43,473 bases of DNA, from the NCBI GenBank assembly GCA_030615105.1, contig JAUWZV010000005.1, forward strand, positions 1 to 43,473, given 5' to 3'. The stretch's first letter is position 1, and the number at the start of each line of letters is the position of its first letter. The notes under the pieces were generated by a model that searched no databases, was not told the origin of the DNA, and saw nothing but the letters and a program-made list of their open reading frames with translations. This document shows, one piece after another, positions 89 to 6,816 of the stretch. The translations under genes were made by a program, and so were the position numbers. The DNA is from Desulfobacteraceae bacterium (GTDB taxonomy: Bacteria > Desulfobacterota > DSM-4660 > Desulfatiglandales > B25-G16).

Positions 89-136
89 AAAATAACCTCC
101 TTTTTATGAGTATTGGTTATGCGATGCCGTCGTTTC

Positions 137-227
137 GCCTAGCGTTCTGAGCGTAACTGAAGTCCAGCCGTAAGGCTGGATTTAAGCGGAGTGCCGAAGG
201 CACGAAGCCAGATACGCTCTGTTAGGT
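137..227 (-). other. attC-like recombination site (degenerate)
   Basis: Read on the minus strand, the site starts ACCTAAC, a perfect R'' box (RYYYAAC), and ends GCTAGGC, which differs from the R' box GTTRRRY at one consensus position. Inner boxes containing GAGCGTA and TACGCTC are complementary. The middle folds into two hairpins, TCCAGCC/GGCTGGA and GTGCC/GGCAC. The total length of 91 nt is within the attC range. It lies directly downstream of the ATPase gene and upstream of the next small gene, the right place for a cassette boundary. The R' mismatch and the lack of an integron integrase in the window keep this tentative. Confidence 0.4.
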
Positions 228-266
228 GAAGTAGCAGAGTTCTAGAATAGCAAAATTTGGTGATAT

Positions 267-2684
267 TCATTTATAGTATTCATCTAACTTAAGGTCTAGT
301 TTTCTACAAGGGCAAAAAATATGTTCATATCCATCCACTTTCTCATATCTTATAAATTTGTGGCAATTATCACACTCGATTTTATTCTCTATATTCTTCC
401 ATCTTTCAACAATCTCTCCAATTTCTGATGAAGTGTAAGGTATTTCGGGGTCTTTCCAATGAGCACAGAAATTCCTGAATCCTGTATCAGTTTCAAAATC
501 AGATATTAATTTTACAATTGAATGGGTTACCTTTAATTTCTCCTTTAATCTCTCTCTAAATGCTTGGAAAAGTTCAGAAAGGCTATGTTCATTCCTTCTG
601 TTATATTTCATTGAGGCTTCGCAATTTTCACAAAGTAGCTGAACTATCCATTCTAAATACACGCCAAATGTTCGCCCAGCCTCCGTAGGATTATCCTTTG
701 TGAGAAACTCATCTATTTGCTCGTAACTATTTTTTCCAGGTTCGATCCTTGGACCTATAGCATAATCCCAACCAAAAAAGTGTTTTCTTATCCACTGCGG
801 AAAGCTTCTCTGAAGGCGATCCAGCCAAATTGAATCATGAGTGAGAAGTAAAATCTGATAGTCAGAAAAGTTCTCTTCTAATAAATCAATTACACGCGGT
901 CTTTTATAAGCATCGAAACTATTTATGACATCATCAAGGATGATAAATTTGAAATCGGTGTTGAAATTCTTAATAGAAGCTAAAAATATAGAAAGTCCAA
1001 AGCTGTTAAGCTGTGACTCACTTAATATCTTATAAGCAGGACTAATCGGATCGCCACCAAATATAATCTCAAGCTCAACCGCCTTATCTTTTTCAGAAAT
1101 CAATTTGATTTTAGGATCGGCAATAACTTCGCTATCCTTCTCCAGTGTCTTGAAATATTTTGCAAGGTCAGAGGAAATTGCATCGAACGAGGCTTGCACA
1201 CCTCTCTTAGTTTCTTCGACATAGTCACCTCGTATCTTTTCATAGTCATCCTTTATTTCTTCAAGCATTTCGAATTTTTTATTTAATCGAGCCAAATTCA
1301 TGAAGCTCTTCTGCAAATTATTCGCCCGCTGGAAATCATCAACTAATGACCTCCGTGATTCGTCTTTTTCTAGGATTTCAACTTGCCTTAAAATCTTTTC
1401 TTTGATTTCACTTTCAGACTCTAATAAGGATTTATACCCCTCTGTACTTACCTTCGTAATAAAATCAAATTCTTTGTCTATGATTTCTATCTTTTTTTCT
1501 AGCATACCCTTACAATCTTTCAATAGTGGTTTTACATTTATCAAATTTCCCTTGAACTGTATAAGGGGTGGCTCTAGCTCTTTTTCTTCCAAATTCGAAC
1601 TAGCAGAATCAATTTTCCGAATAATCTCATCAATTGATGAAAGCAGCTTTTTCCTTTTGATATCAAGCTCATTTCTTCTTCTACTTAATTCATCTAGGTG
1701 ACCTTGTTTACTTTTTATATGTTCGATTAAATTACCTTCATAAGGTTGATCACAGAGAGGACACTTATCATATATTTTAAGAGACTCAAGAGCTTCTATA
1801 CCTTTCTCGTATAAATCTAAAAGAATTAGTTTTGATACTTCCTCTTCATCTCGTTTAAACGTTATAAGGTCTCTCTGAAATTCAGAAATATTTGAGCGTA
1901 TGTCTTCCACAGGATAGAATCGATTAATAATTCCTTGAATCTCTTTCCATAGCGAAAGTTTCTGGATCCTTTCTTCCTTTTCTACTTGCTCTCTTAATTT
2001 TTCAATGCTTGTCTCTACTTCAGCTAATTCTTTTACAGGTGCAATACCTTGACGATTGAGGATAGCATTTACGATTTTTATGAAATTCCCGATATCCTTA
2101 GGTCCCTCTCCAGAGACTTCTCGATACTCGTCTACAAGCCTATCTCTATCTCTTTGTAAACTTTCTAATTCTTGTTCTAGTCGTCCCGCACATGTCTGTA
2201 AATCATTTTGAATATTAAGTGCATTTGCAAAACCCGTAAACCGTGACAAGATTTCATACTTTTCCGCTTTCCGCTTATAAACAAATTCAGTTAGGTCTCT
2301 ATATCTCAAATGGCAAGGATGTTGAATACGTTCCCTTAACTTTGATAGGTTACCTTCGATTTTTGGATGAGTAATTCGATTTGGATCATATTCCATCTTA
2401 ATCTTTCCAATTTTGCCATCCGTAAATTCAACCTTTATGTATGCTTGTCCTTCACTCGCTTCTTTGTGAGGATAAGCTTGTGGGCCTGCTCCCTCTCGGG
2501 CAAGATACTCTATCTTACCAGAATATAGCCATTCCCATGCATCAACAATAGAGCTTTTTCCGCTACCATTCCGACCATAAATCATCATTGATAGAAGAGA
2601 ATGTCCCTTTTTGAAGTCAAGTTCTAAAGGAGGTGTGTTTACACCACGAAATCCCGAAATGGTGATCCTTTGAACTTCTCCCAT
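267..2684 (-). CDS. SMC/RloC-like ABC ATPase with zinc hook and C-terminal HEPN-like motif
   Basis: This is a large chromosome-maintenance-type ATPase. In track numbering, Walker A GRNGSGKSS is at residues 41-49. A long coiled coil follows, interrupted by a zinc-hook CPLC at 312-315. An ABC signature (LSESQ) and Walker B (FIILDD) come at about 560-610. The C-terminal 170 residues carry RNFCAH at 741-746, an exact RX4H motif with N after R as in HEPN ribonucleases, then a zinc-binding pair CDNC and CPC. The layout resembles the anticodon nuclease RloC, but the C-terminal domain is not one I can name. The GTG at 2696 in the track has no ribosome site; the ATG at 2684 has GGTGAG 7 nt upstream and is preferred. 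It is probably co-translated with the 54-aa ORF upstream. A defence role is inferred. Confidence 0.85.
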   Translation of the reverse strand: MGEVQRITISGFRGVNTPPLELDFKKGHSLLSMMIYGRNGSGKSSIVDAWEWLYSGKIEYLAREGAGPQAYPHKEASEGQAYIKVEFTDGKIGKIKMEYDPNRITHPKIEGNLSKLRERIQHPCHLRYRDLTEFVYKRKAEKYEILSRFTGFANALNIQNDLQTCAGRLEQELESLQRDRDRLVDEYREVSGEGPKDIGNFIKIVNAILNRQGIAPVKELAEVETSIEKLREQVEKEERIQKLSLWKEIQGIINRFYPVEDIRSNISEFQRDLITFKRDEEEVSKLILLDLYEKGIEALESLKIYDKCPLCDQPYEGNLIEHIKSKQGHLDELSRRRNELDIKRKKLLSSIDEIIRKIDSASSNLEEKELEPPLIQFKGNLINVKPLLKDCKGMLEKKIEIIDKEFDFITKVSTEGYKSLLESESEIKEKILRQVEILEKDESRRSLVDDFQRANNLQKSFMNLARLNKKFEMLEEIKDDYEKIRGDYVEETKRGVQASFDAISSDLAKYFKTLEKDSEVIADPKIKLISEKDKAVELEIIFGGDPISPAYKILSESQLNSFGLSIFLASIKNFNTDFKFIILDDVINSFDAYKRPRVIDLLEENFSDYQILLLTHDSIWLDRLQRSFPQWIRKHFFGWDYAIGPRIEPGKNSYEQIDEFLTKDNPTEAGRTFGVYLEWIVQLLCENCEASMKYNRRNEHSLSELFQAFRERLKEKLKVTHSIVKLISDFETDTGFRNFCAHWKDPEIPYTSSEIGEIVERWKNIENKIECDNCHKFIRYEKVDGYEHIFCPCRKLDLKLDEYYK

Positions 2685-2685
2685 G

Positions 2686-2850
2686 TTAATTCTCACCTAT
2701 ATTTTTTTCTAATTGTTCAGATACCCAATTCATGAATTTATCGATATTAAACCTATCTTCAGAAATACATGCTCTTATTTCAGCAATTACCTCTTTTTTA
2801 TATTTTCCTGAATTAATAGCTTCTTCAAACCATTTAATAGGAGCTCTCAT
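2686..2850 (-). CDS. Small 54-aa protein upstream of the ATPase
   Basis: This ORF is too short for the track. The ATG at 2850-2848 follows GGGGTGATTGG, a good ribosome site, and the TAA at 2688-2686 lies one base before the ATPase ATG, so the two should be translationally coupled. The product (MRAPIKWFEEAINSG...) is 54 residues, acidic-amphipathic and probably alpha-helical, with two tryptophans and no transmembrane segment. I recognise no family. Its tight coupling suggests a partner, regulator or antitoxin for the ATPase, which is inference. Confidence 0.55.
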   Translation of the reverse strand: MRAPIKWFEEAINSGKYKKEVIAEIRACISEDRFNIDKFMNWVSEQLEKNIGEN

Positions 2851-2860
2851 CCAATCACCC

Positions 2861-2926
2861 CTAATATATTAAAGCTGCTATTTCACCTGACTTGTTCATA
2901 TCCGACAACGTCGTATATACTTTCAT
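2861..2926 (-). CDS. Possible 21-aa leader ORF
   Basis: An ATG with GAGGAT 7 nt upstream opens a 21-codon frame (MKVYTTLSDMNKSG...) that ends 11 nt before the 54-aa ORF. Its start overlaps the TGA of the recombinase remnant. It may be a leader peptide or simply the frameshifted tail of that recombinase. Confidence 0.2.
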   Translation of the reverse strand: MKVYTTLSDMNKSGEIAALIY

Positions 2927-3198
2927 TTTTTTATCCTCATAAAATCCTTGTTACTTACATGGGTATAAATTTCCGTGGTTTTTGAGCTTTTATGTCCTAA
3001 TAGCTCTTGAATATATCTAAGATGCACCTCTTTCCAGTAAATGAGTAGCAAATGAGTGACGTAAGCTATGCGCACTAATTGTTTTCTTATTCTTGAATCT
3101 TTGAAAGTCTTCTCAAAAACTCGCTGAACAGTTCTGATGGTAACATTTCTTTCTTTATCAGGACCAGGGAATAGCCACCTGGAAGGATTATATTCTTT
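2923..3198 (-). pseudogene. Tyrosine recombinase (XerC/D-type integrase), decayed C-terminal part
   Basis: Minus-strand translation gives the hallmark catalytic region in pieces: NPSRWLFPGPDKERNVTIRT, then in another frame HSLRHSFATHLLERG, then LGHKSSKTTEIYTHVSNKD. The RHSFATH box and the LGH...YTHV box with the catalytic tyrosine are clear. At least two frameshifts separate these parts and the N-terminal core-binding domain is gone, so it is dead. I see none of the extra patch typical of integron integrases, so it is a Xer/phage-type enzyme. It probably marks a past integration event next to the ATPase module. Confidence 0.75.
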
Positions 3199-5216: not shown

Positions 5217-5504
5217 ATGTCATTAAAAGTGGTTACAGCACTTAAAGCACGGCAAATATTTGGTACAATAATGAATGCGGTATCATTCAGGAACGACCAG
5301 TATATTGTGGAAAGAAAAGGGATGCCTATGGTGGCTATTATTCCTGTTAAGAAATTCATGCAAATGGATAAGGCAAGACAACGGTTTTTTAGTAATATGT
5401 CAAAAATTAGTGATTCTTTTATTAGAGAAGAACCCAATAAGCTCGACGATATTTTGGAAGAAGCCACACAGGCAGCTAAAAAAATCGAAATCTCTCAGGA
5501 ATAA
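5217..5504 (+). CDS. Phd/YefM-family antitoxin
   Basis: A 95-aa protein whose N-terminal half (VVTALKARQIFGTIMNAV, then QYIVERKGMPMVAIIPVKKF) has the Phd/YefM fold pattern. This domain binds operator DNA, and the C-terminal tail would neutralise the toxin. AAGGGG lies 8 nt before the ATG. It is followed after 6 nt by a PIN-domain gene, the standard antitoxin-toxin order, and such pairs are usually autoregulated. Complete, no defects seen. Confidence 0.85.
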   Translation: MSLKVVTALKARQIFGTIMNAVSFRNDQYIVERKGMPMVAIIPVKKFMQMDKARQRFFSNMSKISDSFIREEPNKLDDILEEATQAAKKIEISQE

Positions 5505-5510
5505 GTATTT

Positions 5511-5948
5511 GTGAAGATTGTTGTCGATGCCAACCTTTTTGCCAGCGGTCTAATCAAGCCGAATTCAAATCCCGGCAAGATTCTTGATCTGGTCAAACAA
5601 AATCAAGTGGAACTGATTTTATCTCCCTCTATTATAAAAGAAATAAAACGTATTTTATTGTATCCCGAAATTCAAAAGTACCATCGTAAAACCCCTCAGG
5701 AAATAGATGCATATTTTGAAGATATCTTAATGTTTGCATGGATTGTTGAAGGAAAAGAAATAGTTGATGTAATTAAAGATGATCCCGCAGATAATAGATA
5801 TTTGGCATGTGCTTATGAAGGCGAAGCAGATCATATTGTTTCTGGAGACCATCACTTGTTAGACTTAGAAACTTATCAGGGAATTGATAGTATTAGTGCA
5901 AAGGCATTCCTAAATCTTTGGGAAATACAAGAGAAAACTTTAAAATAA
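5511..5948 (+). CDS. PIN-domain toxin (COG1569-like)
   Basis: A 145-aa PIN-domain ribonuclease, predicted to cleave RNA when freed from the Phd-like antitoxin upstream. It starts at a GTG. Acidic metal-binding residues are in the expected places: D6 in VVDANLF, E44 in IIKEIKR, D94 in DDPADNR and D113 in SGDHH. Length and motifs match the COG1569 PIN toxin family. All active-site acids are present, so it is probably functional. Confidence 0.85.
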   Translation: MKIVVDANLFASGLIKPNSNPGKILDLVKQNQVELILSPSIIKEIKRILLYPEIQKYHRKTPQEIDAYFEDILMFAWIVEGKEIVDVIKDDPADNRYLACAYEGEADHIVSGDHHLLDLETYQGIDSISAKAFLNLWEIQEKTLK

Positions 5949-5980: not shown

Positions 5981-6382
5981 TTGGATAGTTCAAGCAGACC
6001 ATCTGATAAGGCCAGAGAGGTATTAAAAAAAGCAAGAAGATTTATCTTTCACGAGAAAAGAATTCCTTTTGCCTTCCTTTTTGGCTCTTATGCACAAGGA
6101 GGAGAAACTGTTCTTTCTGATATAGATATAGCAATCTATTTTAACGACATGGATGAAGATGAAAAGATAGTGTATGAACACAGATTATCCCTTGCATTTG
6201 ATGAACAAGTTAATGTCATGAGACTTGAGGATGAGGATACATCTCCAGTAATACGGTTGAGAGCTATAGAAGGGATTCCGATTACTATAAAGGACGACGA
6301 TTTTTTAAACCGTTTTATCCTTTCAATTATCCATCGAGCCTTTGAGGCCGAGATAGTGCTTGCAAGGATCCAGAAGATTTAA
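5981..6382 (+). CDS. mntA: MntA-type nucleotidyltransferase antitoxin
   Basis: A 133-aa minimal nucleotidyltransferase. GSYAQG at 35-40 and SDIDIAI with D47 and D49 form the nucleotide- and metal-binding site. In characterised MntA/HepT pairs this enzyme AMPylates the HEPN toxin on a tyrosine and so silences it. The gene starts with TTG behind AAGGAAGAG. Its TAA overlaps the ATG of hepT by one base (TAATG), showing tight coupling. Residues needed for catalysis are present. Confidence 0.88.
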   Translation: MDSSSRPSDKAREVLKKARRFIFHEKRIPFAFLFGSYAQGGETVLSDIDIAIYFNDMDEDEKIVYEHRLSLAFDEQVNVMRLEDEDTSPVIRLRAIEGIPITIKDDDFLNRFILSIIHRAFEAEIVLARIQKI

Positions 6383-6816
6383 TGATTGATCACAAAGCAT
6401 ATTCAATTCTAAGTTTTTTAAAGGAAGAGATCGAGTATTTTGAAGCTAAGGCAAAAGATATCACCTTCGAAGATTTTACTTCAAACAAGGATCTTAGAAA
6501 AATCCTGAATTCGACCCTAAATGAATTGGTCTTAGCCCTTGTTGACCTTGCTGGTGAATGTTTAAGAAAGGGTGGAAGAAGGGTCCCAACGACCTATAGG
6601 GAAATAATCCTCACCACTGGTGAAATACTTGGTGATATTGCCATAAAGGCTGGTCCTCTTGCTAAGTTAAGAAATGAAACTATACATGAATATATGAATT
6701 TGAATTGGAAAAATATTCAATATCTGAGGGCAAAGGGGCTAGGAATCATAAGAGAATACGTTGATATAGCAGAAAATATTCTGTTTACTCCTGATAATAC
6801 TGGTAAAAAATCCTAA
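6382..6816 (+). CDS. hepT: HepT-type HEPN ribonuclease toxin
   Basis: A 144-aa all-helical HEPN toxin paired with MntA. The catalytic motif RNETIHEY gives R97-X4-H102-X-Y104, the complete RX4HXY motif. The tyrosine is the residue that MntA modifies in studied systems. The upstream region (DLAGECLRKGGRRVPTTY) fits the DUF86/HepT family. The toxin appears intact. The pair lies directly after the Phd/PIN pair, so two complete modules are adjacent. Confidence 0.88.
   Translation: MIDHKAYSILSFLKEEIEYFEAKAKDITFEDFTSNKDLRKILNSTLNELVLALVDLAGECLRKGGRRVPTTYREIILTTGEILGDIAIKAGPLAKLRNETIHEYMNLNWKNIQYLRAKGLGIIREYVDIAENILFTPDNTGKKS

Follow-up and report, generated by a model that had tools for sequence, protein, structure and literature searches.

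The two genes described here, which lie on the reverse strand near the beginning of the window (the whole stretch of 43,473 nucleotides that was analysed), probably form an anti-invader module of the RloC/PrrC type, in which a sensor ATPase would gate a HEPN ribonuclease and a small protein would act as an obligate subunit; we give this reading a probability of roughly 0.6. Both open reading frames of the initial annotation were recovered at the place and on the strand that it had given, and the motifs it had picked out in the larger protein (Walker A, the CPLC hook, Walker B, RNFCAH and the CDNC/CPC cysteines) were all found in the ATPase sequence (Table 1). Its start codon for the ATPase gene had to be revised. 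The start is most likely the ATG at 2682-2684 and not the GTG at 2696, because AGGTGAG precedes the ATG and the nearest relatives (L038, L039, L040 and L042) begin at the matching Met, likewise leaving 1 nt after the small ORF; the GTG falls inside the Shine-Dalgarno-like sequence. Residue numbers are given throughout in the 809-aa count that starts at this GTG.

Table 1. Positions in the window of the gene pair, its motifs and the flanking elements.
Feature	Position	Strand	Remarks
Small ORF, 54 aa, helical, acidic	2686..2850	-	ends 1 nt before the ATPase start
ABC/SMC-like ATPase, 805 aa, with zinc hook, HEPN-like domain and zinc ribbon	267..2684	-	
Alternative ATPase start, GTG	2696		809 aa
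Shine-Dalgarno-like AGGTGAG	2692..2698	-	serves ATG 2682-2684; from the sequence and the start context of L038-L042
Walker A, GRNGSGKS	2553..2576	-	residues 41-48
Zinc hook, CPLC	1752..1763	-	C312-C315
Walker B, FIILDD	930..947	-	D588, D589
HEPN-like helical domain	387..734	-	residues ~655-770
Position of the R-x3-E motif	651..665	-	G678-x3-E682; Gly in the window copy
RNxxxH motif	459..476	-	R741-N742-F-C-A-H746
C-terminal zinc ribbon	306..374	-	C775-x2-C778 ... C795-x-C797 (CDNC/CPC cysteines)
attC-like folded site, 3' of the ATPase gene	120..245	-	DNA fold z -3.2
Integron-type integrase remnant (C-terminal end), just upstream of the pair	2923..3138	-	lies within 2870-3138

Conservation was assessed in an alignment of 43 full-length homologues from bacteria and archaea. 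In the ATPase part, G41, G46 and K47 of Walker A, C312, P313 and C315 of the zinc hook and the DD of Walker B were present in 43/43, and S48 in 42; the dN/dS of the ATPase gene was 0.12-0.16. The protein matched SMC_N (1.4e-13) as well as RecF-like models and, weakly, PbeC (1.8e-5), its best match in PADLOC being LmuB (2.6e-26, over the ATPase portion only), and Foldseek matched the full-length AF2 model to the heads of Rad50, SMC and Lamassu LmuB (LmuB 9hqu, 4e-11). The LmuB matches in both searches, together with a small ORF in the place of LmuC, could mean that the pair is a compact Lamassu system, i.e., an LmuB-like ATPase with an effector fused to its C-terminus and a small protein equivalent to LmuC. 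We regard this as quite improbable, since no LmuA gene was found in the window around the pair, the PADLOC match is confined to the ATPase, the small protein gave no meaningful sequence match to PDB chains or any solved structure, and all 43 homologues carry DD at Walker B, where LmuB generally shows an E-to-Q change (PMC10586767).

AF2 modelled the C-terminal domain as all-helical, with a small zinc ribbon of beta strands behind it (pLDDT 82.5). The best solved matches of this model in Foldseek were the HEPN proteins 2q00 (probability 0.98) and 2hsb (0.77), and HEPN proteins occupied ranks 1, 2, 4, 6 and 9 (TM 0.42-0.57); they are the best fold matches by probability, not by E-value, which was weak (0.12). 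A sequence search of the domain against PDB chains returned nothing meaningful. The HEPN-like character proposed for this domain is supported by the predicted fold and by the invariant E...N-x3-H, and the domain, reported as unrecognised by the initial annotation, can now largely be placed, the RloC nuclease domain being the closest to it in motif and, weakly, in profile. Eight of the eight RloC relatives fetched show [LMI]RxxE...SH, and the profile of our domain scored 28.2 against the RloC C-terminal domain (the best of 200 block shuffles reached 18.6) with the R-x3-E helices in register; the hhalign probability was only 36%, over 30 columns. The catalytic triad of RloC/PrrC is R-x3-E-x36-52-H, often with a Ser ahead of the His, and each of its residues was essential in RloC mutagenesis (PMC2610378). 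The canonical HEPN motif is RN-x3-H (PMC3710099).

Among the 43 homologues, H746 was invariant, N742 was present in 41 and E682 in 42 (Asp in the remaining one), and the distance from E to H, 63 residues in the window copy, ranged from 63 to 87. The cysteines of the zinc ribbon were nearly as constant (C775 in 42/43, C778 in 41/43, C795 in 42/43), C797 being found in 35/43. The window's RNFCAH agrees with the HEPN motif Rx4-6H with a polar residue after R, and E682 with the second acidic residue of HEPN domains (often Ex3[KR]); position E+4 is K/R in 24/43 homologues and Gln in the window copy.

The arginine occupies one of two places. It stands four residues ahead of E682 (R-x3-E, LRxxLE) in 32 homologues and directly ahead of N742 (RNxxxH) in the other 11, window copy included, where position E-4 is Gly; no sequence had it in both places or in neither, and 11 held-out homologues obeyed the same either/or rule. 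The initial annotation had taken RNFCAH for a HEPN signature whose R and H should be conserved among homologues. The motif is present and its H and N are upheld across the family, but the column of R741 is not conserved, the Arg shifting between the two sites. We rejected R741 as a universal family signature (11/43 only). The swap appears to be recurrent, because at least two changes of arginine state are needed on a tree built from the ATPase part alone; a phylogenetically strict test has two independent pairs only, with significance out of reach, so that the exclusivity is to be read as descriptive. The R-x3-E state looks ancestral and the RNxxxH of the window copy derived, since the eight RloC relatives and the actinobacterial relatives all keep R-x3-E; judged by its sequence, the window copy is a member of a subclade in which the Arg moved to the canonical HEPN position. 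In the actinobacterial sister group (L018, L019, L080-L092), where R-x3-E...H is kept, the Asn is mostly lost and no terminal cysteine ribbon is visible in the tails.

The lack of a fixed Arg column, the Rad50/SMC-like heads and the existence of non-catalytic HEPN domains (PMC3710099) would also suit a domain that is a mere platform for binding RNA or protein, with the ATPase acting on DNA (repair, plasmid restriction). This is quite unlikely in our view: a binding platform would not need an invariant H or a retained Arg, and the presence of the H in 43/43 homologues with the Arg always at one of two sites argues for maintained chemistry.

The small partner gene, proposed earlier to be coupled to the ATPase, proved to be conserved. 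A small ORF (about 54-115 aa) lies directly upstream of the ATPase gene at 47/47 loci examined in bacteria and archaea, mostly overlapping its start by 4-17 nt, and at 45 of them it falls within a strict interval of -9..+27 nt, with which only 41 of 258 unrelated long ORFs from the same loci comply. The dN/dS of the window's small ORF against its four closest relatives was 0.24-0.62. A jackknife profile of the small proteins recognised the majority of clades (best E 1e-10 to 0.01 for each), and its ranks are conservative, because many of the high-ranking “decoys” are probably family members at other loci that escaped curation. It did not recognise the small protein of the window clade (E = 18), so that for this copy the link rests on position and purifying selection. 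In the actinobacterial relatives the ATPase itself begins with a comparable helical segment, as an N-terminal fusion; the profile match is weak, though higher than in any of 100 shuffles. We conclude from these sequence comparisons that the small ORF is probably an obligate partner of the ATPase. It might instead be an antitoxin that directly inhibits the HEPN ATPase and has no structural or sensing role; a small acidic ORF just upstream, with overlapping or abutting stop and start codons, is the typical antitoxin layout, and other toxin-antitoxin pairs are found close by in the window. This reading is unlikely, as the actinobacterial fusion is more in keeping with a subunit than with a labile inhibitor and RloC is kept inactive by its own ATPase domain (PMC3710099).

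Full-length homologues with 20-25% identity were detected by tblastn on plasmids of Rhizobiales, Rhodobacterales, Sphingomonads and haloarchaea, and profile searches added Methanoperedens, Methanophagales, Nitrospirota, Verrucomicrobiota, Cyanobacteriota and the host's own phylum. A single-sequence pattern scan of the genome contigs gave no match, although the profile scan did. The INPHARED phages contained no homologue; a contig that was classified as viral carries one copy of the family. Occurrence is patchy: the family was found in 1 of 99 close relatives of the host, in 4 of 247 genomes from its phylum and, in one archaeal phylum, in 22 of 394 genomes. An insertion may have split one homologue (L026/L029, contig C7 of G190), whose two parts are separated by about 1 kb.

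The sequences most similar to the window copy, at 73% protein identity, were fetched from an archaeal phylum, and for three of L038, L039, L040 and L042 the DNA identity was 76-77% over both genes. The DNA similarity begins at the stop codon of the ATPase gene and stops within about 55 bases of the start of the small gene, and this limitation suggests that precisely these two genes were transferred horizontally, with the reservation that the relatives probably come from metagenome-derived assemblies. The genes of the window itself (type II secretion, sigma-54 regulator) have a bacterial look, while the closest relatives of the pair are archaeal, and this closeness may reflect either a recent cross-domain transfer or a binning error.

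The neighbourhoods of the relatives support the defence context suspected for the pair. In Halorhabdus (L003, 2018-10661) a BREX-5 operon houses the pair between pglX and pglZ, and in a relative from the window clade (L110, 125-14339) BrxC, PglX, the pair, PglZ and BrxL follow in a row; the pglX-pglZ gap, occupied by the pair in these two distant archaeal lineages, may be a recurrent accessory slot. A further member of the window clade (L108) has a DUF1156 methylase, a GmrSD-type protein, an SNF2 helicase and DUF499 as neighbours, and elsewhere the pair adjoins DUF499/DUF1156 (L071), AbiE (L075) or an N6/N4 methylase (L107); other copies adjoin conjugative plasmid genes or lie in prophages. 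The window copy itself is not within a BREX or restriction-modification operon. With its SMC_N and RecF-like matches the ATPase could be taken for a housekeeping protein of DNA repair or chromosome maintenance (SbcC/RecF type), but the patchy distribution, the plasmid, prophage and integron sites and the residence in BREX and DUF499 clusters make this very improbable.

In the window, the pair is probably an integron cassette, because it has an attC-like site on its 3' side, a decayed integrase on its 5' side, and a host genome with three integron integrases. The attC-like site has three copies elsewhere in this genome (G000; C21:1269-1349, C129:446-506 and 1970-2062) with 75-80% identity. The integrase remnant matches Phage_integrase (3e-6) and, below the family cut-off, TIGR02249 (37.6 bits); the three full-length integrases, on contigs C28, C64 and C124, exceed the curated cut-off of TIGR02249. 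Beside the attC-like site of contig C21 there is an ORF ending in RNDIVH (L106, 584-1249), another Rx4H HEPN-like protein, which possibly sits in a cassette. Also in the window are an MNT nucleotidyltransferase and HepT-like HEPN pair (type VII toxin-antitoxin; 5981-6816, one-base overlap) and a pair of a Phd/YefM-like antitoxin (under the Pfam cut-off) and a PIN-domain toxin (5217-5948).

For the RloC/PrrC-like module we propose the following mechanism. The large protein would dimerise via its ABC heads and the CPLC zinc hook and sense aberrant or invading DNA, or sense that a neighbouring BREX or restriction system has failed. An ATP-driven change in the heads would then turn on the C-terminal HEPN-type ribonuclease, with a putative active site of E682, N742, H746 and one arginine (R741 in the window copy), and the cleavage of RNA, most likely tRNA anticodon loops or other RNA, would stop the infected cell from growing. 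As a translationally coupled, obligate subunit, the small helical protein would regulate or scaffold the ATPase, the zinc ribbon probably aids nucleic acid binding, and the module as a whole may stand behind BREX or methylation-based restriction as a second layer. Counted against this reading are the weak Foldseek E-value (0.12) and hhalign result (36%), the longer E-to-H spacing, the unconserved R column, the small ORF of the window without profile homology and the position of the window copy outside a BREX or restriction-modification operon.

If the reading is true, a widespread candidate immune module common to bacteria and archaea joins the DNA-triggered RNA-cleaving systems, one that is invisible to the defence-gene models tested (the best match, LmuB, covers the ATPase part only); it would also show how the catalytic triad of RloC/PrrC and the usual HEPN motif are converted into each other. 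Its placing between pglX and pglZ, seen in two BREX operons, raises the hypothesis of a second, suicidal BREX layer, comparable to PrrC for EcoPrrI. More tentatively, and with somewhat less than an even chance, the family may represent a hitherto undescribed cross-domain class of ATPase-gated HEPN ribonucleases with an obligate small subunit, often serving as a backup effector within BREX and related systems, in which the Arg moved at least twice between R-x3-E and RNxxxH; such a class would bring both active-site designs of the HEPN superfamily together in a single family. No prior description of the pair was found in the literature searched; a 2020 classification of ABC ATPases, cited by PMC12839542 and PMC10853773, was outside this search and may include the clade. 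Part of a 2026 BREX survey names backup HEPN effectors and OLD-type ABC ATPases, but not this pair (PMC12839542).

Compared with known systems, the pair resembles Lamassu in having an LmuB-like SMC/Rad50 ATPase of similar size and one small partner, but differs in the fused effector domain, the absence of LmuA and the DD, instead of E-to-Q, at Walker B. The CxC ABC ATPase/DndE (Pbe) systems likewise combine a zinc-hook ABC ATPase with a small protein, whereas their DndE has two RHH repeats and our pair has neither helicase nor HKD nuclease. With canonical HEPN toxins (HepT, RnlA) the window subclade has the Rx4H with Asn after Arg in common, along with a predicted HEPN-like fold; in contrast to them, the domain is fused to an SMC-like ATPase, and most members of the family are without the Arg of Rx4-6H. 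PrrC, an anticodon nuclease, is, like the family, an ATPase-gated HEPN nuclease with an R-x3-E...H triad encoded in a methylation-based defence operon, although it lacks a zinc hook and has no sequence match to the family, and its host operon (EcoPrrI) is type Ic hsd, whereas the clusters of the family contain BREX, DUF499 or methylase genes.

Membership in the RloC sequence family was considered and rejected: the window protein has no match to AAA_13 (PF13166) and scores 22.8 bits against PDC-S06 over the ATPase only, compared with 613 and 951 bits for AAA_13 and PDC-S06 in a positive control (RloC L094). RloC, a Rad50-like anticodon nuclease, and the pair have the ABC head, the CxxC zinc hook and the linkage to restriction systems in common, and most family members carry an RloC-like C-terminal site of the type R-x3-E...N-x2-S-H. 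The E-to-H spacing is longer in the family (63-87, against 28-43 in our RloC sample), which also adds the zinc ribbon and the obligate small partner; the window copy departs further from the triad R-x3-E-x36-52-H by its G-x3-E and a spacing of 63, its Arg having moved beside the Asn, whereas 32/43 homologues keep R-x3-E...H. The analogy to RloC/PrrC drawn in the initial annotation is supported by this anatomy and by R-x3-E...H in most homologues, and the best reading of these comparisons is that the pair would work like RloC/PrrC yet belongs outside the RloC sequence family models.
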